Source: Synechococcus sp. CB0101
GTDB lineage: Bacteria > Cyanobacteriota > Cyanobacteriia > PCC-6307 > Cyanobiaceae
DNA: 64,000 bases
Reading direction: 5' to 3'
Assembly (NCBI RefSeq): GCF_000179235.2
Contig: NZ_CP039373.1
Coordinates: 2,266,554-2,330,553, forward strand
In this document: piece after piece, positions 5,160 to 34,076 of the stretch
How positions within the stretch are numbered: the stretch's first letter is position 1
Layout: the number at the start of each line of letters is the position of its first letter
Notes under the pieces: generated by a model
Told to the model about the DNA's origin: nothing
What the model saw: the letters and a program-made list of their open reading frames with translations, nothing else
The model's database searches: none
Position numbers and translations under genes: made by a program

Positions 5160-5228
5160 GGGTTCAGATCACCGCCAGTAGCCTCCCGTGCGGCCGCTCT
5201 GGTCGCAGCGTCGTCTGCCCTGCTGCCG

Positions 5229-13829: not shown

Positions 13830-13858
13830 GGTCGCCCCAACCCCGCCCGAGCCCACCG

Positions 13859-15430: not shown

Positions 15431-15639
15431 ACACTCTGTTCGCCAAAGACAGTGCAGCTGGCAGCGACCAACCCAACGCCACTCCATCGCGGGGGCATGC
15501 TTCAGCGACTTCATCTAGGCCGAGCAGATCGGCATCGACACGAGGCAGATGCACCATTTCGTCCCCGAAGACGCTGGATTGGTCCCCAGAGAGCAAAGAA
15601 AAAAATCCCTTGGTGTTGCACGAATACTGAACACGCAAG

Positions 15640-16634: not shown

Positions 16635-16734
16635 TGAATACTCGAGCACAACGGTCCAGCCGAACAAGTGGCCGCAACGCTCGAGCAGCAATCTCCAATC
16701 AGGCTAAAATTGAAATGGTAATTTTCACTCGTCC

Positions 16735-17046
16735 GTGAACATCTTCAGACTTGTCGCTACAGCAGCTCTCAGCGCAGCCCTGATCGCTCCCACTGCAAGC
16801 CTGGCTGGCAAGAAGGGTAACGACGGCAATAAGGGAACAACTCGCGTCGAAGCCAAGGCTTCCAAGAAAGCAGCCCATAAAGCCAAAAAACAAAAAGCCG
16901 GCAAGCAGAGCGGCAAGAAAGGAGACAAGAAAAGCGGCAAGGATCTGACAGTCAAACGGGGAGAAACCAAGGTCTTCAGCGGCGAAGACGGCCAAACATA
17001 CGAAACCGTAACTGGAGAAGCTGGCAGCACAACGATTTTTCAATAA
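16735..17046 (+). CDS. Small secreted lysine-rich protein
   Basis: 103 residues from a GTG start. A signal peptide (MNIFRLVATAALSAALIAPTASLA, given as pattern) is followed by ~55 residues that are mostly Lys, Gly, Ala and Ser, then a short neutral C-terminal part. The basic low-complexity stretch could bind acidic polysaccharide or nucleic acid in the envelope. An A/T-rich promoter-like stretch lies just upstream, and a strong terminator follows, so it is a self-contained unit between two decayed genes. Family unknown. Confidence 0.65.
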   Translation: MNIFRLVATAALSAALIAPTASLAGKKGNDGNKGTTRVEAKASKKAAHKAKKQKAGKQSGKKGDKKSGKDLTVKRGETKVFSGEDGQTYETVTGEAGSTTIFQ

Positions 17047-17067
17047 CGTCTACTTGTGATCCTCACA

Positions 17068-17096
17068 AAGCCCAGTGACAAACTGGGCTTTTTTCG
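17068..17096 (+). terminator. Terminator of the lysine-rich protein gene
   Basis: Perfect 9-bp stem AAGCCCAGT/ACTGGGCTT with a 5-nt loop, then a T-run. Confidence 0.9.
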
Positions 17097-17198
17097 CCTT
17101 TCGAGACAGCTGATATCGACTTCTGACCGATCTAGATTCGATACACTCGACCCCAAGGCGATTAAAGCACAATTCGAGACCTTGCAATCAAGCTATTT

Positions 17199-17216
17199 CT
17201 CTAAGAATTCTTAGAG
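17199..17216. other. 18-bp perfect palindrome in an AT-rich gap
   Basis: CTCTAAGAATTCTTAGAG in the stretch 17097-17322, where I see no gene. It could be an operator or a chance palindrome; nothing else supports a role. Confidence 0.3.
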
Positions 17217-17322
17217 GATACACGCCGTTTCAGCTGTCCATAGCCTGCCTGCTGCGCCTGCCTATAACGCCAAGATCTCAATGCGCTGAGTCCAGTGCCT
17301 TCGCCTGCGCAAATCGGTCAGA

Positions 17323-17780
17323 GTTATTTCTAGAAATCTCGACCTAGAACCCGTGGCCGCAGCCCTGAGAGGGAATGAACAGGAAGTCGCCACAAAGGCA
17401 ACCGAACATTCGAGTCAGGTCCCTAGCAATAACGGCCCTACACTGGCCGGAAGCATTTGCAACTGAGATTATCCAAAAGCAACCTTACCTAGTTGACGCA
17501 CAGAAAGCAACCCTAGATCATACTATTCCAGCGCACAAAAAAGGATCGAGGGACTCCCAATCAGACTTCCTATAGACTCTCTCTATAGACCCTATTAGAT
17601 GCATGCTGGCACCAAAGAGCTGACTACAAGGCAGTCTCGATTTAGCAAGGTTTTCAAATGATAACCGATTGCATTCATCAATGAAGGCAAACCGGGCAGC
17701 ATCATGTTGACAGACCGCGATGTGATCTCAACGGGAATCATTGACCCGCGAAGTCATTCAAAGGAGCCAGGTACCAAGCC
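17323..17780 (+). pseudogene. Endonuclease/exonuclease/phosphatase family gene, more decayed copy 2
   Basis: Aligns by eye with the 5' half of copy 1: TCTAGAAATCTCGACCTAGA versus the LSRNLYLGADLEP coding block, then CCCGTGGCCGCAG, then CCTTACCTAGTTG, later TTCATCAATGAAGGC and GACCGCGATGTGATCT. Many stops, indels and lost codons leave no open frame over 70 codons. From 17781 to 18023 the traces become too weak to assign. It is a relic of a tandem duplication or of repeated insertion. Confidence 0.65.
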
Positions 17781-18023
17781 GATCGGCGCCTTGAGCGACT
17801 ACACCTACAGCTGTATCGCAATCAATCTGATCACGACCCCTCAAACACGAGGAGTTGAGAAGGCTCTGTTCAGTATCAAAGCCTTGTTCATCGGAGACAT
17901 CAGCTATTCCCCCCGGCGAGCCACTCGCACCAGCGATTGGATGAATCCGGCAATTCCGGGGATGAACAGGGCGCCGCTACTGTTTTACCCCTGCCATCCC
18001 TTCGTAGGCTTGACAGCGTTGAT

Positions 18024-18733
18024 GTGGCTGGTGATGTGAATCGGCGCCTGCCGCAGCTTCAGCACTGGCTGATTCAGCACTGGTTTGCACTCGCCAATAG
18101 CCTCTTCTGGCTTGTGGTTGGCCTTGAGGCCGCAATCACTGCCACCGTGCTCCAATCGCAGGTGTACCAGCTGCCCTGGTTCGTGAGCTCCAGGGCCTTG
18201 GCGGGTTGGCTCTTCTGCGTCTGGTTGCACCGGAGTCTGCAGCAGCGGCCGCGCTGGCGCGCCCTCACAGGCTGGCAGCGGGCTGCCCTGGTGATCAGCC
18301 TGCTCAGCTTGTTTGCCATCGGGAGTTCACTGCTGATCCGCGGGGTGCGGCTGGCGATTGGTGATGTCGACCCAGCCATGAGCGCCGTGAAGTTCTGGGT
18401 CTATGTGCTCGGGCTGGAACTGCGCCTGATGGTGTGGGCTGGCTTCTATCTGCTCATTGCCGAAAGCCGCGAGCGGCTCCAGGTTCAGGCCCGCCATGCC
18501 GCCACAGAGCTGGCCATGAGCCGGGCCCAGCTCAGCCTGCTCTCCGCCGCCTTTCAACCCCACTTTCTGATGAACGCGATGAACACCCTCATCGCCTGCC
18601 GCCATGATCCCGATGCGGTGGAAAGTGCCGGTGAGGGCCTGGCCGGCTACCTGCGCTACACGCTCGATCGCAGTGATGCGGAATGGGAACCGCTCGCCAC
18701 ACAAATGGAAGCGCTCAACAACTACCTCAGTGT
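18024..18733 (+). pseudogene. LytS/YehU-type sensor histidine kinase, 5' part (cut by IS21)
   Basis: Encodes the N-terminal ~236 residues of a histidine kinase: four or so membrane segments (around residues 20-150), a linker helix, then the phospho-accepting histidine block AFQPHFLMNAMNTLI of the His_kinase (LytS) family and EALNNYLSV at the break. Here an IS21-family element is inserted. Joining base 18733 to 21189 gives LNNYLSVEELRFGERL without loss or gain, a 358-residue kinase. GTG 18024 is a guess for the start; GTG 18036 or ATG 17937 are alternatives. As read, the kinase lacks its ATP-binding domain and must be inactive. Confidence 0.85.
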
Positions 18734-21183
18734 TGTCAGGCGACAGCAAAAACTGGTCCGGCGGCGACACGAAAACTGGTCCACCCTGTGGAGCGAGCCA
18801 GGCCTGACGACACGGTGAGCGCAGGGGCGTCATCTCTGGAGCCGATGGCTGCGGAGATGCCGGTGCAGACCCCTCAGGATGTGGAGGCGATGCAGCGGCT
18901 TTCGGCAGCAGGCTGGGGCCGTAGACGGATTGCCCGGGAACTGGGCTGTTCGCCGGAGACGGTGCGCAAGTACCTACGGCAGGGTGGCTGGCAGCCCTAT
19001 GGCAAGCCCTGCCGCACCTCGGTTCTCGATGGTCAACGGGAGTGGCTGCGGCAGCGATTTCTGGCCCACCGCGGCAATGCCGACGTGCTGCGGCAGGAGT
19101 TGGCCAGTGAGAAGGGAATCAAGGTGAGCCTGCGCACGGTGGAGCGTGCGGTTGAGCCATGGCGGCGTGAGCTGCGCAACGCAGCTGTGGCGACGGTGCG
19201 GTTTGAGACGCCACCGGGCCGGCAGCTGCAGGCGGACTTTGGCCAGTGCGTGGTGCGTATTGGCGGCGAGCGGGTGCGGGTGCACCTGGCGGTGCTCACC
19301 TTGGGATACTCCAGGCGACTGTTGGTGCGGGCGTTCCGCAGCGAGAAGCAGGACCACTGGCTCTCAACCCTGGAGGAGGGTTCCGGCACTGGGGCGGTGT
19401 GCCTCAGGAGGTGCTCGTGGATAACGCTCGCGCCCTGGTGAGTCAGCACGATCCGGAACGACAGATCCTGGTGTTTGCCCAGCGGCTTGAGCAGTTCGCC
19501 AGCTACTGGGGGTTCAAGCCCCGCGCCTGCCGGCCGTACCGGGCCAGGACGAAAGGCAAAGACGAACGTGGGGTGGCGTACGTCAAACGCAACGCCATGG
19601 CCGGGCGGGAGTTCAGCAGCTGGGCGGAGCTGGAGGCCCATCTGGTGCGCTGGACCCGTGAGGTCGCTGACCTGAGGGTGCATGGCACCACGGGTGAGGC
19701 GCCGCTGGAGCGGTTTATGCGCGCAGAAGCCCAGGCCTTGCAGCCGCTGGAGGCCAAGCCGTCCTTCTTGGCAGAGCGGGAGCTGGTGCGCGTTGTGCAC
19801 AGCGACTGCTGCGTGGAAGTGGAAGCGAACTGGTATTCGGCGCCGCAGGCGCTGATCCGCCAGCGGGTGAGCGTGCTGGTGCGCGATCAACAGGTTCTGA
19901 TCCGCCATGGCGGCAGGATCGTGGCTGAGCACAGGCGTCAGCGGCCTGGTAGCCGTAGCCGCCAGGTGATCGACGGCCATTGGGATGGCCTGGTGCCGCA
20001 ACGGCAGCGGCGCGAGGCGGTGCGTTCGCTGCGGGACACCAGCGAGCGTTGTGATCAAGAACAGGAGCAAGAGCAGGAGCGGCGCATGGTTCGCAGCTCT
20101 GAACTGGCCCGGCCTCTGGCCGTCTATGCCGAGCTGATCGGTGAGGTAGCGGCATGAGCACCAACCCGCGCAACCGATCCACACCCATCACGCCACCGGT
20201 GCCGACCGAGGAGCTGGAGGCGATGCTTACCCGCCTGCGGCTACCGGCCATCCGCGATCGCCTCGATGCGCTCCTGGAGGAGGCGGCAAGGCGGGAGATG
20301 AACCTGCGTGAGGCGCTGACCTGGCTCTGCACAGCTGAGGTGGCTCGCAAGGACCAGCTGCGGATGGAAATGGCGCTGCGGCTGGCGCGCTTTCCGTATG
20401 TGCGGACGCTGGAGGCATTTGATTTCGAGGCTCAGCCGTCGATCGATCCGGCCCAAATCCGCGAGCTGGCCACCTGCCGTTGGGTGGCCAACGGCGACAC
20501 CTTGCTACTGCTCGGACCGCCGGGTGTGGGTAAGACCCACTTGGCCGTGGCACTGGGCCGGGAGGCGGTGCGGCTCGGTCACAGCGTCCAGTACGTCGGT
20601 GCGATGGAGCTGATCACAGCCCTGGCCAAAGCCCAGGCGCAGCACGCCCTGGAAGCAAGGCTGACGCAGTACGCCAAAACCCGGCTGCTGATCATCGATG
20701 AGCTCGGCTACCTGCCGCTTGAGCCGAACGCGGCCTATCTGTTCTTCCAGCTGATCTCCCGCTGCTACCAGCGCGGCAGCGTGTTGATCACCTCCAACCG
20801 CCCCGTCATGGAGTGGGGCGAGGTGTTTGGTGATCAGGTGGTTGCCACGGCAATCCTCGATCGGCTGCTGCACCACAGCCACGTGCTGACGATCCGGGGC
20901 GACAGCTACCGGCTCAAAGGGAAACGTCGCAGCGGTCTCATCCGCCCGCAGGCGGCGGTTCCTCCTCACAGGACAGCGCTGGCCTACAGCCACCGCCGCC
21001 CAGTGAGGAGGCCTGAAGGAAAACTCGAATCAGGCAGCACAGGTTCCGCAGCCCACAACAACCACGTCACGACACACACCGATGAGGCAACGATCGAAAA
21101 GCCAACGGAAGGCCCCATCAGCAGACCATCAGCTGGACCAGATTTCGTGTCGCCGGAGGACCAAAAGCGGATGTCGCTTGACA
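18734..21183 (+). mobile_element. IS21-family insertion sequence, 2450 bp, with 5-bp target duplication
   Basis: The ends match as inverted repeats: TGTCAGGCGACA at the left and TGTCAAGCGACA on the minus strand from 21183. Further in, each end carries the repeated transposase-site block GGCGACACGAAA-CTGGTCCA typical of IS21. The element is flanked by AGTGT on both sides (18729-18733 and 21184-21188). Inside are istA (with a frameshift) and istB. Insertion is inside a sensor kinase gene, in the same direction. Confidence 0.95.
18845..20157 (+). pseudogene. istA: IS21 transposase IstA, frameshifted as read
   Basis: Residues in order: N-terminal helix-turn-helix (SAAGWGRRRIARELGCSPETV), then the DDE integrase core with the first Asp in LQADFGQ. 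The frame then breaks at about 19378-19381: STLEE runs into out-of-frame sequence ending at 19441, while the next frame continues FRHWGGVPQEVLVDNARALV (second Asp) and GKDERGVAYVKRNA (Glu), down to 20157. Addition of one base restores one ~437-residue protein. As read, transposase activity is lost. The stop overlaps the istB start (ATGA). Confidence 0.85.
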
Positions 21184-21236
21184 AGTGTGGAAGAACTGCG
21201 CTTCGGCGAGCGCCTCGAAACACGCATTACCAGTGA
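20154..21236 (+). CDS. istB: IS21 helper ATPase IstB (long C-terminal readthrough)
   Basis: An AAA+ ATPase related to DnaA/DnaC that guides IS21 target choice. Walker A GPPGVGKTHLAVALG, Walker B LLIIDELGYLPL, and the sensor-type SVLITSNRPVMEWGEVF block are intact. The family core (~265 residues) ends around YRLKGKRRSGLI; here the frame stays open for another ~95 residues of unrelated sequence, passes the IS end at 21183 and stops at 21236 inside the disrupted kinase gene. The extension is probably not functional and suggests loss of the native stop. Confidence 0.9.
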   Translation: MSTNPRNRSTPITPPVPTEELEAMLTRLRLPAIRDRLDALLEEAARREMNLREALTWLCTAEVARKDQLRMEMALRLARFPYVRTLEAFDFEAQPSIDPAQIRELATCRWVANGDTLLLLGPPGVGKTHLAVALGREAVRLGHSVQYVGAMELITALAKAQAQHALEARLTQYAKTRLLIIDELGYLPLEPNAAYLFFQLISRCYQRGSVLITSNRPVMEWGEVFGDQVVATAILDRLLHHSHVLTIRGDSYRLKGKRRSGLIRPQAAVPPHRTALAYSHRRPVRRPEGKLESGSTGSAAHNNHVTTHTDEATIEKPTEGPISRPSAGPDFVSPEDQKRMSLDKCGRTALRRAPRNTHYQ

Positions 21237-21555
21237 CCCGCACCTACACCATCAAGCCGTGCCACGTTTTCTGCTTCAACCGCTGGTGGAAAACGCGCTT
21301 AAGCACGGCCAGGGCAACAACGCTGGCTGCCTGCACTTGCGCATCAGCCTTGAGCGGACGGCGGAGCAGCTGCAGCTGCAGGTGTGCAACACCGGTGTTC
21401 TCGCAGCCGACCAAGGGAGCAGCCCAAGCGGCGTGGGCTACGGCCTGAGCGGCCTCGCGCAGCGCCTGCACTGGCACTACGGCAACCAGGCCAGTTTCTC
21501 GATCCGCCAAGACGGCGCCTGGGTGATCGCCACGTTGATGCTTCCTCTGCGATGA
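21184..21555 (+). pseudogene. LytS/YehU-type sensor histidine kinase, 3' part
   Basis: The C-terminal ~123 residues of the kinase cut by the IS: VEELRFGERLETRI, the N-box FLLQPLVENALKHG and the G-box GVGYGLSGLAQRLHWHYG of the HATPase domain. The sequence resumes in the right frame directly after the second AGTGT target copy. Its stop overlaps the ATG of the response-regulator gene (ATGA), as expected of an original two-gene operon. Confidence 0.85.
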
Positions 21556-22297
21556 CAAGCCCTCTGCGCGCCCTCTTGGTTGACGATGAACCTCCGGCCC
21601 TGGAGCGCCTGCAAGAGCTGCTGAGGCTCTGCGGGGATGTGGAGGTGCTGGCGATGGTGTGCTCCGTGCAGGAGGCCGTTGGCGTTCTTCAACAGCACCC
21701 GATCGATCTGGTGTTCCTCGATGAACGCATGCCCGGTGGCGATGGCCACACCCTGCTCGGCCAGATCCCCCAAGGGGTGGAGGTGATCTTCACCACCGCC
21801 CATAGCGACTACGCCGTGGACGCCTTTGCCGCAGGTGTGCACGACTATCTCTCAAGCGGGTGCAGGCAGCGCGCCTGGGCCTGAGCCTCGAGCGCCTTAG
21901 GCAGCGCAGGAGCTCGACAGCATCGCCCACACCAGCCACCAGCACTGGCCTGTGGCTGGAAGCAAGTGACGGCGACCGGGGTGTGCGCCAATTCGTGCCC
22001 TTTGCGGAGATTCTCTGGGTAGCGGCGATGCAGAACTACACCCATCTGCAACTGCAAGAGGGGCCTGGGCTCATGGTGAAGCGTCCGCTCAAATACTGGG
22101 AGGAACAACTCCCGGCTGAGCGCTTCCTACGCCTGGATCGCTCCACGATCGTGCAAGCAAGCCGGATCAGCCGCTGCGAGCGGCAATCGCGCAGCTGCAC
22201 GCTGTTGCGCTTTGGCAGCGCCGCCGAGGCCCCCACCCTGGCCGTGGGCAGCACGGCCGCGATCCGGTTGCAACAGGCCCTGGCTCTGCAGCCATGA
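21552..22297 (+). pseudogene. LytTR-family response regulator, frameshifted as read
   Basis: The first frame gives a receiver domain: ALLVDDEPPALERL, phospho-acceptor Asp in LVFLDERMPGGDG, TTAHSDYAVDAF. At about 21848-21857, exactly where the Lys-Pro of the receiver should follow HDYL, the frame breaks and stops at 21884. The next frame carries the linker and a LytTR DNA-binding domain (EASDGDRGVRQFVPFAEILWVAAMQNYTHL pattern, then LDRSTIVQASRISRCER) to 22297. At least one base, and probably several codons, are missing. It was the cognate regulator of the broken kinase. Confidence 0.8.
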
Positions 22298-24033
22298 GCC
22301 AACGCCATCCGCTGCAGTGGTTGCGTTCCTGGGGCAAGCAAGAGGCGCAGGCCCTGGCGCCCTGGCAGCGCCGGTGGCTGCAACGCGGCAGCCTGGTGTT
22401 GGCATTAGGTCTATGCGCCCTGGCGCTGGAGCGCCACCACCGCCTGGAGCGCCAGCGCCGCGATACACAGCTGCAGCAGGGCATCGAGCTGGCGGCCGCC
22501 CAATGGAGCACCCTGCGGGCCACCGCCTACGACTGGGCCCATTGGGATGAAACCCATGCCTTTGCCCGCGGCGAAGCGCCCGGCTACCCCGCCCGCAACC
22601 TGAAGGTGGCCAACGGGCTAAGCCGTGTGGCTCCGGTGGTGCTGATCGTCAACCGAAGCGGCGCCTTGCTCACCATGCAGGGCCGCCGCGGGCCCTCCAG
22701 CTGGGCGCAAGACCCCTTGGTGCGCTGCAGCCAGGCCCAGAGCACAGCACTGCTGGCCGCACCGCAAACCCTGGGAATCCACTGCCGTGATCAAAACGGA
22801 ACCCGGCTCTGGATCGGTGTGATCGAGCCGATCACCGATACCAGCGAACGAGCCGCGGCATCGGGCCTTATGGTGCTGCTGGCCCCCCTGCGCCATCCCA
22901 GCCATGGGCCTGCGATGCAGGCCCTGATGCAGACCCTGGAGCGGCAGCTGATCGCAGGCGCGCCTGGGGACCAGACCCTCCAGCTTCAGGGGCAACCGCT
23001 CTGGGGCCCTGATCAGCGGGTGCTCAATCTCAACCCCAAACCCGTCATAGGCGAAGCAATCGCCGCCCTGGGCAGCGACCTCAGCGTGGCGCTGCCCTTT
23101 CTGCTCTCCCTGCTGGGGCTGCGGGCCGGCTTGATGTTGCAGCGGCGCCGCAGCTTGCTCCTGCAGCGGCAACAACAACAACGCAGTCAACAACGGCTGC
23201 GCCGAGCCCGGGGTCAACTGGAACAAGGGCTCAACAACCTGCCGGATCGCCAACGCGAACAAGCGCTGCAGTTGCTCAGCCACGGATGCGGCGATCCGAT
23301 CGACGATCTCGCCAGAAAGCTGGAGCTGGTGGCCCAGGCGCTGCGTAATCAGCAAGAGGCACCGAGCCAAAGCGCAGGGGTGCAATTCGAACCGATGCGC
23401 AATCACCAAGGCGAGCTCCAGCGCGTGCACGTGCTCGCGGGCCATGAGCGCACCCTGGAGCACTACCGGAAAGCGATCAAGGCCTGGAGCAACTTGCCCT
23501 CGGGTGTGCGCTGCAATCTTGGCCTGCAGCTGGATCTCCCCCCTTCGCTGTGGGGCAACCCACGAACTCTTCAGGAGCTGGTCGCCATCCTCAACAACCA
23601 CAACATGCCAGCGGAGCTGTGCACCATTGGCATCGAAGGCGCTAACGCAAGTGCCGATGCAATCAGTCAACACCTACCGCTGTGGCGCAACGCCGGATTC
23701 GCGCTGGGCTGGTTGCATGCGGGGGGAGCTCTGGATCCAGCCATCTGGCTGCACAAACAGTGGGTGGATGAAGTGCAGCTATTCACACCAGGTTGGAGCA
23801 ACCCCTCAGTCTTCACAGCCCAGCAAGCACTGATCCAAGCCCTGATCGAGCTGGGACATGCACGCGATCTACAAGTGTCGGTGCGAGGGGTGCAACAACA
23901 GGACGACCTGCAGGGTTTGTGGCAGCGAGGCGTGAACCTCGCTAGCGGCCCACGAATCGGAGTGCCGGTGCAGGAGATCAGCGAGCTGCTGGTCAAACAG
24001 GCAGGCAACAACCATGAAACCAAGCAGCGATGA
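22294..24033 (+). CDS. CHASE4-like sensor protein with degenerate EAL domain
   Basis: 579 residues. One membrane helix near residues 33-46, then an extracytoplasmic CHASE4-like sensor domain (DWAHWDETHAF, later residues to ~210), a second helix near 255-275, a Gln/Arg-rich coiled coil (to ~345), and a C-terminal EAL-like fold (about 365-570). The catalytic EAL residues are gone: the usual DDFGTGYSS block reads LHAGGALDP, the KID position reads VQL, and EGVE reads RGVQ, so it should not hydrolyse cyclic di-GMP and may bind a partner instead. It starts with an ATGA overlap on the regulator gene and is the only unbroken member of that operon. Confidence 0.75.
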   Translation: MSQRHPLQWLRSWGKQEAQALAPWQRRWLQRGSLVLALGLCALALERHHRLERQRRDTQLQQGIELAAAQWSTLRATAYDWAHWDETHAFARGEAPGYPARNLKVANGLSRVAPVVLIVNRSGALLTMQGRRGPSSWAQDPLVRCSQAQSTALLAAPQTLGIHCRDQNGTRLWIGVIEPITDTSERAAASGLMVLLAPLRHPSHGPAMQALMQTLERQLIAGAPGDQTLQLQGQPLWGPDQRVLNLNPKPVIGEAIAALGSDLSVALPFLLSLLGLRAGLMLQRRRSLLLQRQQQQRSQQRLRRARGQLEQGLNNLPDRQREQALQLLSHGCGDPIDDLARKLELVAQALRNQQEAPSQSAGVQFEPMRNHQGELQRVHVLAGHERTLEHYRKAIKAWSNLPSGVRCNLGLQLDLPPSLWGNPRTLQELVAILNNHNMPAELCTIGIEGANASADAISQHLPLWRNAGFALGWLHAGGALDPAIWLHKQWVDEVQLFTPGWSNPSVFTAQQALIQALIELGHARDLQVSVRGVQQQDDLQGLWQRGVNLASGPRIGVPVQEISELLVKQAGNNHETKQR

Positions 24034-24101
24034 GCAACCGTTCAGAACGTGACGCGATCAGCGGGCAATGAGGCTTCGGGCCAGGTGAGTTCACCCTGAT
24101 C

Positions 24102-24539
24102 ATGGATGGCCTGAGAACCCTGAAGAGATACACCGAAACCCTCCGCCGCAAGCCCGGAAAGAACTTGGCGGTTGTGGATGTCTACGCCAATTCCAACGAA
24201 GACGGCAACAAGCCTATCGCGCGCGTCAAAGCCAACTTCAAACAACACAAGCGCATGGCTGAATTGAGCCGTGGCGGCGGATACATCAACACTCTGACCG
24301 ACGATGGCGATTTCGAGCTCACCTGGGAAGGAAAAAACTTAGAGATAATATGGCTCAAAGACTTCAGCAACTTCAACTTCACCCCGACCGAACTCAGCCG
24401 AGCAAGCAAAATGCAGACTAGTACAACTCAGAACCCACAGACATCCGCCCAAAAGAATGAGCCAACTCAGCAACCAGAAAATTACTTTATCGACGCAAAG
24501 ATGCCTCCATCAGAATCCGTAACGGGGCTACCCAATTGA
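24102..24539 (+). CDS. Hypothetical protein
   Basis: 145 residues, no signal peptide. The first ~95 residues look folded (KNLAVVDVYANSNEDGNKPIARVKAN, FELTWEGKNLEIIWL), the rest is a Thr/Gln/Asn-rich tail. The last 58 bases overlap the end of the opposite-strand caspase-like gene. Lower GC and different codon use than the core genes suggest transfer. Function unknown. Confidence 0.5.
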   Translation: MDGLRTLKRYTETLRRKPGKNLAVVDVYANSNEDGNKPIARVKANFKQHKRMAELSRGGGYINTLTDDGDFELTWEGKNLEIIWLKDFSNFNFTPTELSRASKMQTSTTQNPQTSAQKNEPTQQPENYFIDAKMPPSESVTGLPN

Positions 24540-26565
24540 CCAACACCATTACCGACAACAGACGGGAATATGGTGCCATACGTCTTCTGTTTGAACTGGT
24601 CAGGAGTGAGCCACTTCTTACCCCGACCAATCACCTGGCCAGACTCATCAGCAGTCCAGACCTGATACAAACCTTCCTTCTTTCCTTCGCCTTGGAGCAA
24701 CAGGCGGTAGCGGCCGCCATCCTTCACAGCAGCCGCAATATCCCAATGCGCTGAACTGTCATCGCTCAAAATAGAGCCGTCTTGGGCACGCAGTGGATTA
24801 ATGATGGGATCGGGACCATCTGACTTAAGCTCATAGAAACCGCCATAAGCATCGCGAGACAAAACATCTCCACCCACCGTGAACGTCACCTCCGCCACAG
24901 AGTAATCCTCACCATCTGACACTTGATAGAGGAATGAATCACGTCCCACAAATTCAGGGTCAGGAGTGTAGCGGAAGCTATTTCCACCAATCTTCTTAAG
25001 ACTACCATTCTCAGGCGCAGAGAAGTCTGTTACACGGAGACTTTGACCCTCCAGATCAAAGTCTCCAAGAAAACCAGGCTGAGAATCGACAGAGAATTTC
25101 ACGCGCTTCGCACCCGAGGCCACAGACACAAAATCATCTGCAAGCTGTGGCGCATCATTGACTGACTCGACTTCAAGAGTCACACTGATTGCGCCAGAGG
25201 ACGTAGGCGTCGAGTAACTCAAAACGAAAGAGTCAACCCCGTAAAAATCAGCAACTGGCACATAGTAAAGGCGGCCGTCTCTTCGCTCCAGACTCCCCAT
25301 AGATGGGAGAGTGACGGCATCAACCTGAACATCCGAACCATAAAGCTCAACAAGTCGCGCGTAGACTTCGACCACGCCATCTTCTTTAAGCCGTAAAGAT
25401 AATTCTTCGTCACCCACCTCAGCAAGAAGACGGTCAGGAGCTATTACATCAACACCATCTTTTTCTAGAGGATGAGTAAAATCATCACCCGAAAATACTG
25501 AAACGCTCCATCGCCATAAGCCCATGGATGCTCCCATGGATACTTTGGTTCGCCCGCATTAGGCTCATAGGCACCCTTAAACGCAAATTGGTCCTTGTCC
25601 TTTGCAGTCGCGAACAATTCACTTGCGAGAGGGCGACCGGCCTCCAAGGCAATTCTTATACCTTCAGCAAAAGCATAATTAATACTCTGCTCATACTGAT
25701 TGGTAGCAGCAATTCCATAGGCATAATCAGCGGAATCAATTGCTGATTCGCTCGCGGCAAGCATTCCGCCCGAAAAACATTGATTATAGACAAGAGTTGC
25801 ATACCCAGCACTCTCAATAACAGGGGCTACCCATTGAGCCAGCTGAGCATTACCAATAGCATCGCTCCCCCATCCATTCAGACGAGCCTGATTACCGACA
25901 TCTCTCCTACCAAAAAGCCATTTAGGGTTTATATCATTGTAAGCAATGAGATTACCCTGCCCCTCTCCAAAATCTCCATGGTCAAAAGTCCAGAAAAATA
26001 CGTGGTCGTTGCTATCAACACGACCCGCGACCTCAGTCAAAGCGCTTTGCAGCGCAGAGCCATTTGCAGAGAGAACAGAAGACCCCGACGCAAACGTCAT
26101 GTCCGACGAGGCGAAGTAAACAACTTGAGCTAGATAATCGCCATCATCTTTATCGCTAGCCTCGTATTGATAATCAATTTTCAACAACCCTCCAAGCCGC
26201 TTATTAAGGTCCGCAAAATTTTCCTCAAATCCTTCAGCTTCAGCACGAGAAAGCCTTGCATTGTTAGCAGTGGCCTTCTTAAACTCTAGCTGTTCATTAA
26301 AAATGCTCTCAGCAAGAAATGGATCAACACCAAGTCGAACAATTTCATCTATAGATCCAAACCCATAGGCTTGGTCGTGACGTGTATCCGATTCAGCATT
26401 GGCATAAAGAACAATAATGTTCTCTTGAGCTATACCATGCTGGTCACGCAAGACCTCGTAAAGACCCTTTAAAGAATTGTAGTAACGCGAAAAATTACGA
26501 CTTGGACTTATGCCACCCGCAAACAATACTGCATAATCTTCAGAAATGTTTTGCTCAGTCGCCAC
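24482..26565 (-). pseudogene. Caspase-like protein with cadherin-like domains, frameshifted as read
   Basis: Starting from GTG 26565, the first frame encodes a caspase/legumain-like domain: AVLFAGGISPSRNF at the start, the catalytic His in FWTFDHGDFGEG and the catalytic Cys in LVYNQCFSGGML. At the plus-strand A-run 25492-25495 the frame breaks; one more T on the coding strand would give QYFSGDDFTHP and join it to a second frame. That frame encodes two cadherin/VCBS-type beta domains (YVPVADFYGVDSFVLSY and YTPDPEFVGRDSFLYQVSDG) and a C-terminal region. The full product would be ~694 residues. It has no obvious N-terminal signal. Base composition is lower in GC than the core. Confidence 0.75.
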
Positions 26566-26649
26566 GGTTTCTAGTCAAGTGATCATCATCCTAAGTGTCG
26601 TCACCAGGAGTCCGTCAATAGAGGCGGGCATTGGGGATGAATCCGTAGC

Positions 26650-28140
26650 TCAAGGGGACGAAATCCACAACTGCCTCAATGACACCTGTTGAGGACCCAG
26701 TCTCTCCACTGACACCCCACAGCCTTTCTGACACGCCCACAACAGGCTGCGCCCTTCCAGCCCAGCCACCTCCAGGCCCACACGCCGGCTCCGGTTCAGC
26801 ACCACCTCCACCTGTTCCCCGCCCGGCGCCCCCCGCACCAGCCGCAGGCCCTGATCCCCGTCGGGGCCCTGCAACACCTCCACCGCAAGTTCGGCTGAGC
26901 GCAGCGCCGGCTGCTCCCGCCGCAACGCCGCCAGCGAGGCGATGAACGCCCGCAAATCCTGGGGCCAGGCCTGCGGATCGCCCCAGGGGAAGGCCTCCCG
27001 ACACTCCGGCTCCGCCCCACCGCTCAAGCCCGCCTCCGTGCCGTAGTACACGCACGGCACGCCCGGCAACACAAACAGCAGCACCAGCGCCAGCTTCAGC
27101 GCGTCCACATCGCCCTGGAGCATGTGCAGCGCCCGTGGCACATCGTGGCTGTCGAGCAGGTTCAGCTGGGCCTGATTCACCTCCGGCCGATACCAGCTCA
27201 AGGTTTCAAGAAGCACCTCCTTCCAGCGCTCACCGCTGAGGCAGCCGTAGGGAATTGCCTCACGGGCATGGCCCTGCTGCAGCCGGCCATCGGCCACCCA
27301 ACCCAAACAACTCCAGGCCACCCGGTAATTCATCACCCCATCGAAGTGCTCGCCCCCCAACCAGGCGCGCGCATCGCCCCAGATCTCACCCACGATCCAG
27401 GCCTCAGGATTGGCCTCCCGCACAACGCGGCGAAACTCCACCCAGAAGCTCGGCTCAACCTCATCGGGCACATCCAGGCGCCAGCCATCGATACCCCGCT
27501 CGATCCAGTGGCGCCCCACCGCCAGCAGGTGCTCCCGCACCTGCTGATTGGCGTGGTTGAACTTCGGCAGCGCCGGATCACACCACCAGCTGTGATAACC
27601 GCAGGGTTCACCCGGCTCTGGATAGGGCTTGAGGGGCCAGTGCTCGGTGATGAACCAGTCGACATAGGGCGAGGCCGGGCCGTTCTCCAGCAGATGGTGA
27701 AACGCCCAGAAGCCCCTGCCGCAGTGGTTAAACACACCATCGAGGATCAATCGCATCCCCCGCCGCTTCAGCTCCGCTACCAGCGCATCAAAGGCTTGAT
27801 CACCGCCTAGTAAGGGATCTACCTGGAAGTAGTCGTAGGCGTGATAACGGTGATTGGCCGCCGAACTGAAGATCGGGGTGAGATAGAGGCAGGTGATGCC
27901 CAGCGCCTGCAGATGGTCGAGCCCCTCGATCACGCCATAGAGGTCTCCACCCTGAAACCCGGTGGGCGTGGGTGGATCGCCCCAGGGCTGCAGAGCCAAA
28001 CCCTGCTGCGCCGCCACGCGGCCGCTGCGGCGAAAGCGATCGGGAAAGATCTGAGCCACCACCGCCTCGGCCACCCAGGCGGGCGGACGGGTGAAGGCAG
28101 AGCGGAGATCCGAACTCACGGCCACTCCAGCCCTCTCCAT
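26650..28140 (-). CDS. GH13 family alpha-amylase/cyclomaltodextrinase-like hydrolase
   Basis: 496 residues. A (beta/alpha)8 GH13 enzyme: YLTPIFSSAANHRYHAYDYF, LILDGVFNHCG (region I), GWRLDVPDEV with the catalytic Asp, IVGEIWGDAR with the catalytic Glu, and LLDSHDVPRAL with the third acidic residue. A beta domain follows. It lacks a signal peptide, so it should cleave maltodextrins or glycogen fragments in the cytoplasm; the YHAYDYF/VFNH blocks are like neopullulanases. ATG 28140 is chosen because upstream residues do not look like protein. Confidence 0.9.
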   Translation of the reverse strand: MERAGVAVSSDLRSAFTRPPAWVAEAVVAQIFPDRFRRSGRVAAQQGLALQPWGDPPTPTGFQGGDLYGVIEGLDHLQALGITCLYLTPIFSSAANHRYHAYDYFQVDPLLGGDQAFDALVAELKRRGMRLILDGVFNHCGRGFWAFHHLLENGPASPYVDWFITEHWPLKPYPEPGEPCGYHSWWCDPALPKFNHANQQVREHLLAVGRHWIERGIDGWRLDVPDEVEPSFWVEFRRVVREANPEAWIVGEIWGDARAWLGGEHFDGVMNYRVAWSCLGWVADGRLQQGHAREAIPYGCLSGERWKEVLLETLSWYRPEVNQAQLNLLDSHDVPRALHMLQGDVDALKLALVLLFVLPGVPCVYYGTEAGLSGGAEPECREAFPWGDPQAWPQDLRAFIASLAALRREQPALRSAELAVEVLQGPDGDQGLRLVRGAPGGEQVEVVLNRSRRVGLEVAGLEGRSLLWACQKGCGVSVERLGPQQVSLRQLWISSP

Positions 28141-28464: not shown

Positions 28465-29000
28465 CCAGCAGCGGCGAGCAGTCCACCGCCACAGTCGCCA
28501 TCTTCCCGATGGCTCCGCTGATCCGCTTCACCCTGATCAGCCTCTATCTAGCGCTGGTGCTGCCACTGCCCGTGCTGGCTCCGCCGGAGCTCCAGGGCTG
28601 GCTCTGGGCTGCGTTGCCGCTTGGGCTAGTGCTGATCCTGGCGCTGGTGAGCGAACAGGTGGAACTCAGCGACATCGGGATCCGCGTCGGCCATCCGGCT
28701 TGGTGCCGTTGGTGGCTGCGTCGCGGCTGGCATCTGCAGTGGGAGGCGATCACCGGGCTCACCCCAGTGAACACCAGCCAGGGAGGCAAAGTTTTTTACG
28801 TGCGAACACAAGAAGGATCGGCCTATCTGCTCCCTCAGCGGGTACAAGCCTTTGACGGCTTTCTGAGCCGCTTCAGCCAATACACGGGGCTCAACACCAG
28901 CTCCATCGGCCGGATCAGCCCACCATGGACGTATCAACTGCTGGCCAGCATCTGTGGTGTGATGCTGGGATCTGAAATAACTTGGCTACTGATACGCTAA
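28461..29000 (+). CDS. Small membrane protein with PH-like domain
   Basis: 179 residues. Two adjacent hydrophobic segments (about residues 20-65) are followed by a domain with the pattern of a bacterial PH-like fold (VELSDIGIRV, WHLQWEAITGLTPV, GKVFYVRTQEGSAYLLPQRV) and a final hydrophobic helix. The PH-like reading is an inference from the strand pattern. Coupled to 28174-28464 by an ATGA overlap. Confidence 0.65.
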   Translation: MTSSGEQSTATVAIFPMAPLIRFTLISLYLALVLPLPVLAPPELQGWLWAALPLGLVLILALVSEQVELSDIGIRVGHPAWCRWWLRRGWHLQWEAITGLTPVNTSQGGKVFYVRTQEGSAYLLPQRVQAFDGFLSRFSQYTGLNTSSIGRISPPWTYQLLASICGVMLGSEITWLLIR

Positions 29001-29021
29001 CGTTCTGATCAAGCAATCTAA

Positions 29022-29507
29022 ATGTCGACGAGAGGCCAATTTCCAGCACAGTTCAGCCTCTCAAAACGATTTGTCCCCTCCGATACACCCCGCGATGTGC
29101 TCTGGTGTGGAACAGACCTCACCCTTGGTATTCGCACCCAAGAAGTACGAAACTGTTGGGCGTGTCCCAGCATCAACGCATTCGAATCAAGCCTGATTCG
29201 CCTTGGCCTAGCCGATCGAAGCATTCATAGCAGCGAATGGAGCCTTATCACCCTTCACGCCAATGATTTCACGGGAGGCTTCAAGATCGGGCCAGAATCG
29301 AGAGATAGATCTCGATATCAAATAAAGGGAGAGGGTCTCTTCAGCGGATCCGGCACCTATTGCGTTCAATACTTTTCGACGGCGTTGATAGCGCCATTCA
29401 CCTCACCATACCAGCCTAGGCCTGAACGAAAGGAACAAGGAACAGAATACCTGCCCAACCGGCTGGCCCCAAAACCAACCATCACCACTTCGAAGGTCGA
29501 GCAATGA
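29022..29507 (+). CDS. Doubtful hypothetical protein
   Basis: 161 residues with no recognised domain or signal. It starts 22 bp behind the membrane-protein gene and overlaps the next ORF by ATGA. Amino-acid composition is acceptable (three Cys, aromatic residues spread out), but nothing else supports it. It may be part of a decayed calcium-binding or repeat protein, as the next short ORF suggests. Confidence 0.3.
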   Translation: MSTRGQFPAQFSLSKRFVPSDTPRDVLWCGTDLTLGIRTQEVRNCWACPSINAFESSLIRLGLADRSIHSSEWSLITLHANDFTGGFKIGPESRDRSRYQIKGEGLFSGSGTYCVQYFSTALIAPFTSPYQPRPERKEQGTEYLPNRLAPKPTITTSKVEQ

Positions 29508-29689
29508 TCACGGATTTCACCAGCCAAGAGCGCATCATCCTACGTGGCTTTGATCCTGAAGATGTCAAGATCACACAACACTCCAGCTCAAGCGGAGGGC
29601 TGTCGATCAGGAATCAGGATTTCTGGATTGACCTTCGCAGCAGTGCGGTCAATCGAAATGAACCAATCCATCTAATCGCATTCAACTAA
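29504..29689 (+). CDS. Short ORF resembling the C-terminus of an RTX/hemolysin-type protein
   Basis: 61 residues. ITDFTSQERIILRGFDPEDVKI is like the conserved end of calcium-binding RTX-type proteins (I-x-D-F-x-x-x-D-x-I-x-L), with the final strand WIDLRSSAVN. No GGXGXD repeats are present. It is probably a fragment, or a small protein exported by the ABC transporter just downstream; the latter is speculative. Confidence 0.35.
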   Translation: MITDFTSQERIILRGFDPEDVKITQHSSSSGGLSIRNQDFWIDLRSSAVNRNEPIHLIAFN

Positions 29690-29704
29690 ACACAACCTCT
29701 AATC

Positions 29705-31660
29705 ATGTTACGCAGCATTCAGAATCTCGGCAGGCTGATCGCGCCCTTCTTCACAGGCTCAGCAAACAAACGCTCGATCGCCATCATCGCCATTTATCTG
29801 ATCCTTGCCTTCCTGATAGCTCTCGGGCTCGCCATGGCTGGGATTTTGGCAGTTCAGGCACTCATCAGCTGGCTCGTTCCTCAGAGCATCGCCACCAGCG
29901 CCTTCGCTGAAATCAGCAGCTTCACGCAGTGGCTGCGGCAAAGCCATATGGATGCACTCACCGCTTCGCTGGCCGGGGCTGCTGCTGTAGCGCTAGCAGC
30001 TGCAAGCCGCTCACTACAACGCCCCCAGAAAACGGCCTGGCTCTATGTAATTGGCAGTTTCACTCTGCTACTGCTATTGAATGCAATGCTTGTTGACTTC
30101 TCCTATCTTGCCAATCACCTAACCAATGCCTTTACCTCTCGCAATGAAAGCCAGGCCAAAAACATCCTAATCGGACTAGCCCTCATCCTTGGCGGGCTAG
30201 TCCCTGTTTTCTATAGCAGCACACTCGTCTCTCGCAATCTAGCAAACTTCTGGCGATCAGTCTCCAGCCAACAATACATTAACAACTACCTTCGCAACAA
30301 CAGTTTCTTCCGCATCAGCTCGGCAAGCAATACAGCCGATAGGCAAATCGACAACCCAGACCAACGCATCACCCAAGACACCGACGAGTTCACCCAAGAA
30401 GCCACTTATCTCTTTTTCGAATTAGTTCGCAGTTTCATCTCAACCGCAAGTTTTTCACTGGTTTTATGGTCAATCAACCCTGTAGCCTTTGGAATCGTGA
30501 TCGTGTATGCATTAACAGGAACAGCTATTGGAGCGGGCATCGGCAGGAAGCTTTTCAAGCTCAATTACAAACAGCTAGAACTCAATGCAGACTTTCGCTA
30601 CGCAGTCATTCAGGTACGCGACAATGCTGAATCCATCGCCTTCTACCGCGGCGAAAGCGCTGAACGCACCCGGATGACAGCTGCCCTCGACAGCGCTATT
30701 AACAATAAGTATAAACTCATCAAGAACGTCTCCGCTTTTGGCGCTTATCAAGCCACCTACGCCAATCTTCAGATTTTTGTACCCTACATCCTACTCTGGA
30801 CGACTTACTTCAACGGAGATGTGGAATTTGGAGCGATCAGCCAAACAGCCATAGCCTTCTCATCTGTGATGGGGACCTTTAGCTTCCTGGTTGATAATTT
30901 CACCTCCCTAGCAACTCTATCGTCTAACGCTGTTCGACTAGAGGAGCTCTCTGAGGCACTCATCCCGACCGCGCAAATTCAAGGTCCAGGCTCCCAGAGT
31001 TCGGACGCCGTAATCGACGTAAAGAAAGCCTGTCTTCATGTTCCGCACACTGATCGGCTCCTGATCAAAGACCTCACCCTCAACGTGAGCCCTCACGATC
31101 GCATTTTGCTCGTGGGCTCCTCAGGCACCGGCAAAACCTCACTCCTCCGCATGCTCAGCGGGCTTTGGCATCCATCCGCCGGCTCAAGCCACAGCAAAGG
31201 CCTGGATGACGGTGTAATCTTCGTTCCACAAAAGCCCTATCTATTTCGCTGCAGCCTTAAGGAACTGCTCTTCTACCCCCACACCCCACGGGCCATCAGC
31301 ACCGAGCAGATTGCAGCCACACTCAAGGCTGCGAACCTACCCAACCTGCTCCAGCAACATCCCGATCCCGATGAGGTTGTGGAATGGCAAAAAGTGCTCT
31401 CCGTTGGCGAGCAACAGCGCATTGCCTTTGCACGGGTAATGCTGAGCCAAGCGAGCTTCGCACTCCTCGATGAGGCCACCAGCGCCCTCGACACCGCCAA
31501 TGAGCGAGCCGCCTACCAGCAGCTGCAGCAATCAGGCATGGGATACATCAGCGTTGGCCACCGGCCGTCCCTGCTCGAGCATCACAGCAAAGTGCTCGAG
31601 CTTCAAGCCGGTGGACACTGGCGACTGATCGAGGCTGATCAGTATGCCTTCGCCAGTTGA
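29705..31660 (+). CDS. SbmA/BacA-like ABC transporter, fused permease and ATPase
   Basis: 651 residues. Six or more membrane helices in the first ~400 residues with the ABC_membrane_2 pattern (SFSLVLWSINPVAFG, EFRYAVIQVRDNAESIAFYRGE-type EAA-like loop), then an ATPase domain: Walker A VGSSGTGKTSLLR, signature LSVGEQQRIAFARV, Walker B FALLDEATSALD, and switch His in YISVGHRPSLL. The family includes peroxisomal ABCD proteins and bacterial YddA/BacA; cyanobacterial members are mostly of unknown substrate (vitamin B12 or peptides in relatives). GC is lower than in the core genes. Confidence 0.85.
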   Translation: MLRSIQNLGRLIAPFFTGSANKRSIAIIAIYLILAFLIALGLAMAGILAVQALISWLVPQSIATSAFAEISSFTQWLRQSHMDALTASLAGAAAVALAAASRSLQRPQKTAWLYVIGSFTLLLLLNAMLVDFSYLANHLTNAFTSRNESQAKNILIGLALILGGLVPVFYSSTLVSRNLANFWRSVSSQQYINNYLRNNSFFRISSASNTADRQIDNPDQRITQDTDEFTQEATYLFFELVRSFISTASFSLVLWSINPVAFGIVIVYALTGTAIGAGIGRKLFKLNYKQLELNADFRYAVIQVRDNAESIAFYRGESAERTRMTAALDSAINNKYKLIKNVSAFGAYQATYANLQIFVPYILLWTTYFNGDVEFGAISQTAIAFSSVMGTFSFLVDNFTSLATLSSNAVRLEELSEALIPTAQIQGPGSQSSDAVIDVKKACLHVPHTDRLLIKDLTLNVSPHDRILLVGSSGTGKTSLLRMLSGLWHPSAGSSHSKGLDDGVIFVPQKPYLFRCSLKELLFYPHTPRAISTEQIAATLKAANLPNLLQQHPDPDEVVEWQKVLSVGEQQRIAFARVMLSQASFALLDEATSALDTANERAAYQQLQQSGMGYISVGHRPSLLEHHSKVLELQAGGHWRLIEADQYAFAS

Positions 31661-31674
31661 ATCAAAGGCGCAGC

Positions 31675-32325
31675 TCAACTCCCATAGGCCACCTCACAAG
31701 CCGCGTTCAACAGCTGCGCCTCGGAGAGATTGTTCGGTGCATAGCCGTTCAGTTCACCATCACGGCAATCGGCATCCATCTGGTAGGTGACACCACCGCG
31801 GCTCACCAGAAAACGAATGCCGTTGTCGGTTTCAGCTTGTACCGAACGGTAATTCAGCTGATAGGAGCTATCGGGCACCACGATCGTGGGTGCTTGCGTG
31901 CGTTGGGCACTGGTGATCGCCGCAGCGATGATCGAGCCCGCCGCAAGGGCGCCGTAATCCCACGCGGCTGATCGCGACCCCCACCAGCCCCAGCCGCGGT
32001 AGGTGGAGCTGTTGTACCAACCCCGGCGGGTATTGCGGTACGAGGAGGGCGCCCAGGTGCGTGGATCACAACCCAGCCCGTTGCAGGGGCGATTCCAATG
32101 GTTGTAGCGCTGCACCGGGCTCCAATACTGCTGCTTCCAGCGATTGGGATTGCGACGCCAATAGTCGGGATGTTTGAAGGACGACGTCGACTTGGTACGA
32201 CTCGACTGGCTGTTACGCCTTTTGTTGGTGTTGTTCTTCTGTTTCGACAGGCCAGGCTCTACAGCCTGTAGGGCCATCACGGCCACCACACACGCCAGCA
32301 GACCACGGCGCAACAGCAATGGCAT
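31675..32325 (-). CDS. Secreted Asn/Trp/Arg-rich protein, intact paralog of 8295-9043
   Basis: 216 residues. A signal peptide (LLLRRGLLACVVAVMALQAVEP) leads to a Lys/Asn/Ser-rich stretch, an Arg/Trp/Tyr/Asn-rich region (YWRRNPNRWKQQYW), a hydrophobic helix (YGALAAGSIIAAAITSA) and the C-terminal domain VPDSSYQLNYRSVQ ... ADCRDGELNGYAPNNLSEAQLLNAACEVAYGS (pattern). This domain has two conserved Cys and is shared with the frameshifted gene at 8295-9043. Function unknown; membrane-anchored in the envelope. Confidence 0.75.
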   Translation of the reverse strand: MPLLLRRGLLACVVAVMALQAVEPGLSKQKNNTNKRRNSQSSRTKSTSSFKHPDYWRRNPNRWKQQYWSPVQRYNHWNRPCNGLGCDPRTWAPSSYRNTRRGWYNSSTYRGWGWWGSRSAAWDYGALAAGSIIAAAITSAQRTQAPTIVVPDSSYQLNYRSVQAETDNGIRFLVSRGGVTYQMDADCRDGELNGYAPNNLSEAQLLNAACEVAYGS

Positions 32326-32356
32326 CCTTCACCTTGAGCTCATTCAATGATGCCTG

Positions 32357-33139
32357 CTAAGGCGCAATGGGCGTCATCGTGCGGGATGATTCGGCACCAG
32401 CGGTTTCCGCCGGAATCGTGTCGAGGCTGAAGCGATAGCCCTGCTGCCGCACCGTTTCAATTCCGCCGCCTTCGCCGAGGCCCGCCTGTTCGAGCTTGCG
32501 CCGCAACGTGAGCACCTGGGTATCCACCGAGCGGGGCCCGCCGCTGAACGGCGGCCAGGCCATGCGCAACAGCTCGCTGCGGTTGCGCACCACCCCTGGC
32601 GGCATCAACAACGCACACAGGAGAGCAAATTCCCTGGGGCTCAGCTCCACCGGCTGATCGCGCAGCGTCACCTGGCGCAGCAGCAAATGCACCTCCAGCG
32701 GACCCACACACACCCGCTCCTGCAGGCCGCTGCGGCTGCGGCGCAGCAACGAACGGCTGCGGGCTGCCAATTCCTCCAGGCCGAAGGGCTTGCGCAACAC
32801 CTCATCGGCGCCGGCGTCGAGCAACGCCACCACAGGCTCCGAGCCCGAGCGCGCCGTGAGCACCATCACCGGGCAGCGCAACTGCGCCGCCAGCTTCAGG
32901 GCGGTGGTTTCCTCCAGCAGCTCCGCGGCCACCAACAGATCCGGGGTGAGGTCGTCGCACAGGGCCACGGCCTCGGCGGCGCTGGCCACAGCGGCGGCTA
33001 GATAGCCGTCCTGGCGGAGGCGTTGGGCCAAGACGGTGCGCAACGTGGGGTGGGGATCAACCACCAACACACGTTTCAGGGTTGTTTCAGCCCCATTGGG
33101 TGTGGAGCCGGCAGCGGAGGAATCCACCTGGTTCTCCAT
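32357..33139 (-). CDS. OmpR-type response regulator with degenerate receiver
   Basis: 260 residues. Receiver domain from residue ~22: VLVVDPHPTLRTVLAQRL keeps only one of the two acidic residues (Asp28-Pro); the phospho-acceptor position in PDLLVAAELL is Ala72 instead of Asp; the Thr (VLTAR) and Lys117 (LRKPFG) are kept. The C-terminal winged-helix DNA-binding domain (PVELSPREFALLCALLM, RSVDTQVLTLRRKLEQ, TVRQQGYRF) is complete. It therefore should bind DNA without classical phosphorylation. No kinase gene is adjacent. A short acidic and Ser-rich tail extends each end. Confidence 0.85.
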   Translation of the reverse strand: MENQVDSSAAGSTPNGAETTLKRVLVVDPHPTLRTVLAQRLRQDGYLAAAVASAAEAVALCDDLTPDLLVAAELLEETTALKLAAQLRCPVMVLTARSGSEPVVALLDAGADEVLRKPFGLEELAARSRSLLRRSRSGLQERVCVGPLEVHLLLRQVTLRDQPVELSPREFALLCALLMPPGVVRNRSELLRMAWPPFSGGPRSVDTQVLTLRRKLEQAGLGEGGGIETVRQQGYRFSLDTIPAETAGAESSRTMTPIAP

Positions 33140-33515: not shown

Positions 33516-33836
33516 TCAGGCCAGCGCCACCGCCAGCTTTTCGCGCAGTTCGCCGGAGTTGTACATCTCGATCAGAATGTCGGATCCGCCGATGAACTCG
33601 CCGTTCACGTACACCTGGGGAATGGTGGGCCAATCGGAGAACTCCTTGATGCCCTGACGAATCTCCATATCGGAGAGCACGTCGAAGGTTTCGAAGGCCA
33701 CCCCCAGGGAGTTGAGGATCTGCACCACGTTGTTGCTGAAGCCGCACTGGGGCATCAACTTGCTGCCCTTCATGAACACAAACACGGGGCTGCTGCCCAC
33801 CAGTTGTTCGATGCGTTGCTGGGTGGAGGCGTCCAT
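33516..33836 (-). CDS. grxD: Monothiol glutaredoxin, Grx4 type
   Basis: 106 residues. The CGFS active site (MPQCGFSNNVVQIL), the WPTIPQVYVNGEFIGG glutathione-binding block and GGSDILIEMYNSGEL are all present. CGFS glutaredoxins bind a [2Fe-2S] cluster with glutathione and carry it to client proteins, often with BolA. The BolA gene lies directly upstream with 3 bp spacing, so the pair is made together. Confidence 0.95.
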   Translation of the reverse strand: MDASTQQRIEQLVGSSPVFVFMKGSKLMPQCGFSNNVVQILNSLGVAFETFDVLSDMEIRQGIKEFSDWPTIPQVYVNGEFIGGSDILIEMYNSGELREKLAVALA

Positions 33837-33839
33837 GGT

Positions 33840-34076
33840 TCAGGCGGTGGGGGTGGAGGTCTGCAGGGCCAGGGCGTGAATGGCCTCACTGGCCAGCTCG
33901 CTGCGCAGGGCGCCGTACACGAGCTGGTGCTGCTTCACGCGGCTCAGGCCGTCGAAAGCGGTGGAGACCACCGTCACCTGCAGGTGATCGCCGCCGCCGG
34001 TGAGGTCTTCCACCTCAACACGGGCATCCGGCAGCGCCTGGGTGATGGCAGCTCGCACCTGGTCGGGATGGACCAT
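33840..34076 (-). CDS. BolA family protein
   Basis: 78 residues with the BolA alpha/beta fold: [22 protein letters not shown] and the conserved His-containing segment [17 protein letters not shown], ending [10 protein letters not shown]. BolA proteins form [2Fe-2S]-bridged heterodimers with CGFS glutaredoxins through the invariant His and are involved in iron homeostasis. Start ATG 34076; the longer open frame upstream is not conserved-looking. Confidence 0.93.

Follow-up and report, generated by a model that had tools for sequence, protein, structure and literature searches.

Cysteine peptidases of family C13 comprise legumain, asparaginyl endopeptidases and ligases, and a subunit of the GPI transamidase. 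According to a review, these enzymes cleave after Asn or Asp, and legumain and the caspases display the same basic topology (PMC4357240). The orthocaspases and metacaspases (C14B) of cyanobacteria belong to the same clan, and one survey lists them as missing from most unicellular Synechococcales (PMC8283722). Here we describe a gene of Synechococcus sp. CB0101 in which a putative cysteine peptidase of this clan and a pair of cadherin-like domains are encoded in two overlapping reading frames. It was analysed within a stretch of 64,000 nucleotides (the window), to which all positions refer. We consider it likely that the locus represents a gene for one chain of about 694 residues, acquired into an island and subsequently cut by one accidental small break, with no regulated switch involved.

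Gene organization

The original prediction had placed a His and a Cys block in one frame and two cadherin-type domains in the next. Both open reading frames (ORF1 and ORF2) were confirmed on the minus strand, where they overlap in different frames, and the Pfam matches agree with this description. The features of the gene are given below, where L003 denotes a gene of genome G276, the sole relative found.

26565-25465, minus strand: ORF1, GTG start, 366 amino acids, predicted C13-like (clan CD) cysteine peptidase domain
25978-25980, minus strand: codon for His196, the putative catalytic residue of the DHG block, identical in both rows of the alignment with L003
25777-25779, minus strand: codon for Cys263, the putative catalytic residue of the QCFSG block, identical in both rows of the alignment with L003
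25480-25521, minus strand: inferred frame break, with both frames open and homology to L003 on either side; includes TTTT at 25492-25495
25537-24482, minus strand: ORF2, ATG start, 351 amino acids, two cadherin/Big_9-like domains and a C-terminal tail
24878-25159, minus strand: best Big_9 stretch (Pfam), ORF2 residues 127-220
24482-24874, minus strand: C-terminal tail, about 130 amino acids, with a related sequence at the C-terminus of a serralysin-type RTX protein

The blocks DHGDFGEG (His196) and NQCFSGG (Cys263) are both encoded in ORF1, whose final 8 residues lie downstream of the inferred break. ORF1 aligns to residues 4-357 of L003 and ORF2 to residues 367-586; by arithmetic, 358 residues of ORF1 and 336 of ORF2 add up to about 694, which fits the chain length proposed earlier for the repaired frame. 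The gene is single-copy in the genome and 2084 bp long, and apart from the single break there are no stops or frame breaks in its 2.1 kb. The ORF2 tail of about 130 amino acids is a feature that the original prediction did not contain. A scan displayed promoter-like sites only at chance level and found no terminator-like site. On the opposite strand, a plus-strand ORF of 145 amino acids (24102-24539) overlaps the end of ORF2, without any Pfam or NCBIfam match.

A relative in one frame

A protein search among 400 genomes of the family returned matches in two, namely G276 and the genome that contains the window. The G276 gene L003 encodes 593 amino acids in one open frame, with the peptidase and two cadherin/Big_9-like domains. 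It matches ORF1 (BLASTP, E 3e-32) as well as ORF2 (E 2e-32) and spans the join, at 30-35% identity to the window protein. L003 lacks the C-terminal tail, and its neighbours differ from those in the window. Because L003 carries both parts in one frame, the two halves would belong to one ancestral chain, a conclusion supported by this one relative. The single chain claimed earlier is borne out by the same 593-residue frame, and separate genes for the two parts were not seen in the one relative compared.

Two separate genes, with ORF2 translated from its own start, would be very improbable. There are ATG codons of ORF2 in the overlap, and GGGAG is located 5 nt before the second of these. However, this DNA also codes for WEHPW in ORF1, and L003 retains the EHPW part, and BLASTP aligns ORF2 to L003 only from residue 14, i.e. 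from the join. This alignment, together with the fusion of both parts in L003, led us to discard the two-gene reading.

Beyond G276 the gene is rarely encountered. It is absent in 24 other genomes of the genus, and a search across the phylum matched one of 386 genomes, i.e. its own, being negative in the other 385. In the genus of G276, one of 31 genomes matched (G276 itself), and in the family of G276, with the peptidase domain as query, one of 399 (again G276 itself), a draw that may not have included the window's own genome. A search of 400 family genomes with the Pfam model returned no match, which is a weak negative, since the G276 protein passes the model and an earlier draw of the same size had included G276, although G276 may not have been among these 400. 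No confirmed relative was obtained from the genome contig collection and none from viral contigs. Phages and plasmids gave no match with ORF1 as query, and plasmids searched with ORF2 or L003 gave repeat proteins only, no record covering 80% of the query.

The frame break

Both frames are open together only from the stop of the ORF2 frame (25559-25561) down to 25465, where ORF1 ends. The break is bracketed by the alignments with L003, with EHPW before and EK-GV after it, and this homology narrows its position only to about 25480-25521; hence TTTT at 25492-25495 is a candidate place, and an unproven one. The original prediction had set the break at precisely this run. The run does lie inside the interval, but it is only TTTT, and the gene contains 29 homopolymer runs of at least four equal bases, six of them runs of five T.

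The suggestion that slippage at this run could switch between two products, the enzyme in short form and a longer adhesive protein, found no support. Contingency genes carry a long homopolymer or repeat of seven or more units. A phase-variable run of this kind was ruled out, as there is only TTTT, one of 29 such runs. Comparison of the poly-T length in orthologs, which had been proposed as a check, was carried out with the one relative: at the join, the DNA of L003 lacks any stretch of four T, and as L003 is open in one frame, the break is not conserved there. Programmed -1 frameshifting, or a T-run of variable length, is very improbable in our view, although some details would suit it. The P-site tRNA could re-pair on TTTT, GGAG is found 10 nt upstream of it, and the downstream RNA folds somewhat better than shuffled sequences (z -1.88; 7 of 200 shuffles at least as good). 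On the other hand, inspection of the junction revealed no canonical slippery heptamer X XXY YYZ in frame. Programmed shifting was rejected on the basis of the single frame of L003 and the lack of a T-run in it, with the RNA fold leaning slightly the other way.

Identity of the peptidase

The enzyme had been announced as caspase-like. That it is a cysteine peptidase of the caspase clan is supported, but Pfam, fold and profile matches point to a legumain-like (C13) rather than a caspase (C14) relationship, and it is nearer to the former. ORF1 scores 19.5 bits against Peptidase_C13 (PF01650), just under the gathering cut-off of 22.8, and L003 scores 38.2 bits, over the same cut-off. Because ORF1 falls below the cut-off, we name it C13-like (clan CD) and do not file it as a member of C13. 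Neither ORF1 nor L003 matches a C14 family in Pfam, by which a caspase proper was ruled out.

A structure model was built from two sequences, the window protein and L003, with a pLDDT of 58. In it, one strand ends with the His, and the Cys directly follows the next strand. In Foldseek, ranks 1-12 are occupied by chain K of the GPI transamidase and by legumain-type C13 enzymes, every one with E above 0.01. In VIA, ranks 1-26 are legumain-type (best Z 10.4, rmsd 3.7, 148 aligned), and rank 27 is a metacaspase with Z 9.7, tied by VIA's own rule; metacaspases thus score within Z 1 of the legumains. A two-row profile searched against the PDB up to E 10 gave 7 matches, 6 of them legumain-type (best E 0.015). 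In the alignments shown, all of weak score, the DHG block lines up with DHG or NHG of legumains, and the Cys block lined up once, with the Cys block of an asparaginyl ligase. ORF1 would hence, in a model of pLDDT 58, combine a legumain-type fold with His and Cys blocks in legumain positions. Searches of the PDB by sequence gave nothing sensible and no legumain with ORF1 alone, and no legumain with the peptidase domain of L003.

Cadherin-like domains, tail and export

ORF2 matches Big_9 in two stretches with 64.3 bits (cut-off 23.6; 1.9e-17), Cadherin_5 with 55.4 bits (cut-off 26.5; 5.4e-15) and Cadherin_4 with 35.6 bits (cut-off 25.1). At the level of sequence, the matches to Big_9 and Cadherin_5 are far beyond chance. 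Against the tandem-95 repeat protein model NF012211, ORF2 reaches 68.9 bits, below the NCBIfam cut-off of 90. A structure model of ORF2 was poor (pLDDT 46).

The tail has no Pfam family of its own among matches up to E 5. Related sequences were found in 5 of 151 family genomes, the own genome included. The best non-self match is the C-terminus of L008 in genome G040 (33% identity over 80 residues, E 3.4e-8), a protein that carries serralysin and RTX domains. Pfam analysis of two of the four non-self matches displayed W_rich_C (PF07483) below its cut-off in both of these tail relatives (19.8 and 21.6 versus 26.2). Inspection by eye revealed no N-terminal signal sequence on ORF1. Since the tail resembles the C-terminus of a serralysin/RTX protein, export via the C-terminus is plausible, and so is a location of the whole protein at the surface or outside the cell. 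HlyD-type partners (TIGR01843) give 16 matches in the genome, none over cut-off, and 13 of 14 control genomes also match.

An accessory island

The gene is located in an accessory island, beside an alpha-amylase gene. The island and two of the features in it are as follows.

15430-26786, no strand: accessory island holding the gene; six relatives lack it or have other filling in its place
18733-21184, plus strand: IS21-like element (istA in two frames, istB), which cuts a histidine-kinase gene; six copies in the genome
21552-22297, plus strand: LytTR response-regulator gene with a frame break near 21851; unbroken in G013

A carotenoid isomerase gene is found at 13793-15430, as would suit a cyanobacterium. 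The locus was compared in six of the ten other genomes of the genus that have an amylase match. Between the homologies at about 15.4 and 26.8 kb, the spacing amounts to about 142 bp in G002, 158 bp in G024, 252 bp in G015, 635 bp in G016 and 1.4 kb in G011, and G013 contains 9.9 kb of partly shared filling. GC content is 0.48-0.54 over 24-27 kb versus 0.63-0.68 in the adjoining 22-24 and 27-29 kb; it is also low at 16-18 and 29-31 kb. The G276 gene likewise has a GC content of 0.365 versus 0.491 in its 17-kb surroundings. Low GC, patchy occurrence and the island itself indicate that the gene was apparently transferred, which agrees with the transferred type assumed in the original prediction.

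The kinase gene cut by the IS21-like element ends at 18734 and is intact in G013. Elsewhere in the island, 15688-16116 and 17340-17779 hold parts of a gene spread over several frames, in two diverged versions (73-92% alike) that look like decayed duplicates. On the far side of the alpha-amylase gene there is a second variable, partly low-GC stretch (28960-32406), within which an intact SbmA/BacA-like ABC transporter gene is located at 29705-31660.

In G013, the closest genome compared, a calpain-type gene (PF00648, 39.3 bits, 565 amino acids; L024 16646-18343) is situated beside the amylase gene and fills the slot of the window's legumain-type gene. The slot thereby offers a way to study why enzymes of this kind are gained and lost. 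One may speculate that the slot trades large eukaryote-like cysteine proteases, legumain-type here and calpain-type in G013, and that the legumain-type form is a rarely noticed kind of asparaginyl-type protease which small unicellular cyanobacteria export and tether to their surface; we regard this broader idea as unlikely.

Mutation or base-call error

The break is most likely an accident, whether a mutation in the organism or a sequencing error that remained in the assembly, and not a molecular switch. Between real decay and residual error we make no decision and take them as about equally likely.

A real and recent frameshift mutation is a substantial possibility, if somewhat short of even; the island would then be in decay, and the gene would be a recent pseudogene or encode a shortened peptidase. 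Damage of this kind is present nearby, in the island kinase gene cut by the IS element and in the frame-broken regulator, both intact in G013. Moreover, breaks are rare in unique conserved genes: over 132 ORFs of G013 (147.6 kb) only 2 were counted, the LytTR regulator and one 2-base difference. For this count, 5 of 137 ORFs had been dropped (coverage under 85%), and one of 3 flagged cases was set aside as a start over-extension. The reverse count flagged 3 of 141 ORFs, one being a gene near 8.9 kb, after 4 of 145 G000 ORFs had been dropped at the same coverage limit. When 24 gene stretches were compared with seven loci of relatives, 5 of them showed two frames. These comprise the LytTR regulator, the over-extension just mentioned, the gene near 8.9 kb, and the stretches 4914-5692 and 33519-33934, the latter two of which we take, without proof, for antisense shadows. 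However, the gene is otherwise undamaged, and the same assembly contains evident one-base deletion errors.

A residual base-call deletion in the assembly, with the gene whole in the organism, is a substantial possibility as well, if likewise below even. Six genome copies of the IS21-like element, compared over 2.45 kb, differ by no substitution and by five one-base deletions. Each of the five falls within a run of 3-5 G or C, and three are in the window copy. These deletions are read as assembly errors, because real mutation should bring substitutions too. The unique gene at 8295-9176 is one G short in a 5-G run relative to G015, which changes its frame. This one-base loss speaks for a base-call error and against a mutation in the gene studied here. 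Homopolymer-length errors are described as the commonest type in long-read assemblies, often remaining in repeats (PMC8812927). On the other hand, the gene is single-copy, the rate of breaks in unique genes is about twenty times lower than in the IS copies, and about 0.03 breaks would be expected in 2.1 kb at the unique-gene rate. In addition, the known deletions are in G/C runs, whereas the candidate run consists of T. In any case, the copies of a repeated element provide an internal standard against which frame breaks elsewhere in their genome can be judged.

Proposed origin of the locus

We hypothesize an ancestral chain in which a legumain/C13-like cysteine peptidase was followed by two cadherin/Big_9-like domains and a tail. 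The gene for this chain would have been acquired into the accessory island, where a single small frame break of accidental origin would have divided it. This break would be either a mutation that inactivated the gene recently or a base-call error left in the assembly. The whole chain would be a putative peptidase with a His-Cys dyad and, as in C13 enzymes, probable cleavage after Asn or Asp. The cadherin-like domains might hold this peptidase at the cell surface or in the matrix, and export would presumably proceed from the C-terminus. With the DNA as read, translation from the ORF1 start would yield the peptidase half only, ending 8 residues past the break, without the adhesive domains and the tail.

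Several points weigh against this model. The ancestral chain is deduced from a single relative of 30-35% identity that has no tail, and the peptidase half in the window is itself under the Pfam cut-off. The gene looks kept, with both catalytic residues present, unlike a long-dead gene, and the unique conserved genes show only the 2 breaks mentioned above, so that a chance error at just this place would not be expected. If whole in the organism, the gene would provide a bacterial example of a legumain-type protease joined to cadherin-like domains. Among the top-ranked open-licence literature on bacterial and cyanobacterial legumain, C13 and prokaryotic caspase homologs, we found no paper on such a fusion.

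Comparison with known systems

With family C13 the window protein shares the His and Cys blocks, the strand order in the model and the top fold matches. It differs by its PF01650 score below the cut-off and by the cadherin-like domains that follow the peptidase domain, and no N-terminal signal sequence is apparent by eye. Orthocaspases and metacaspases are of the same clan and of similar fold (Z 9.7 versus 10.4 for legumains), but ORF1 and L003 differ from them in lacking a C14 match in Pfam. The likeness to surface proteins with Big_9, Cadherin_5 or tandem-95 repeats consists in the two Big_9 stretches over cut-off in ORF2, which differs from tandem-95 proteins in having only two repeats. The serralysin-type protein L008 has a related C-terminal tail; it is a metalloprotease with RTX repeats, whereas ORF2 shows no RTX in Pfam. 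L003 of G276 has the same domain set as the window gene and differs by its one frame, the missing tail and other neighbours. The parts are already known, and their combination represents a variant, a rare architecture.
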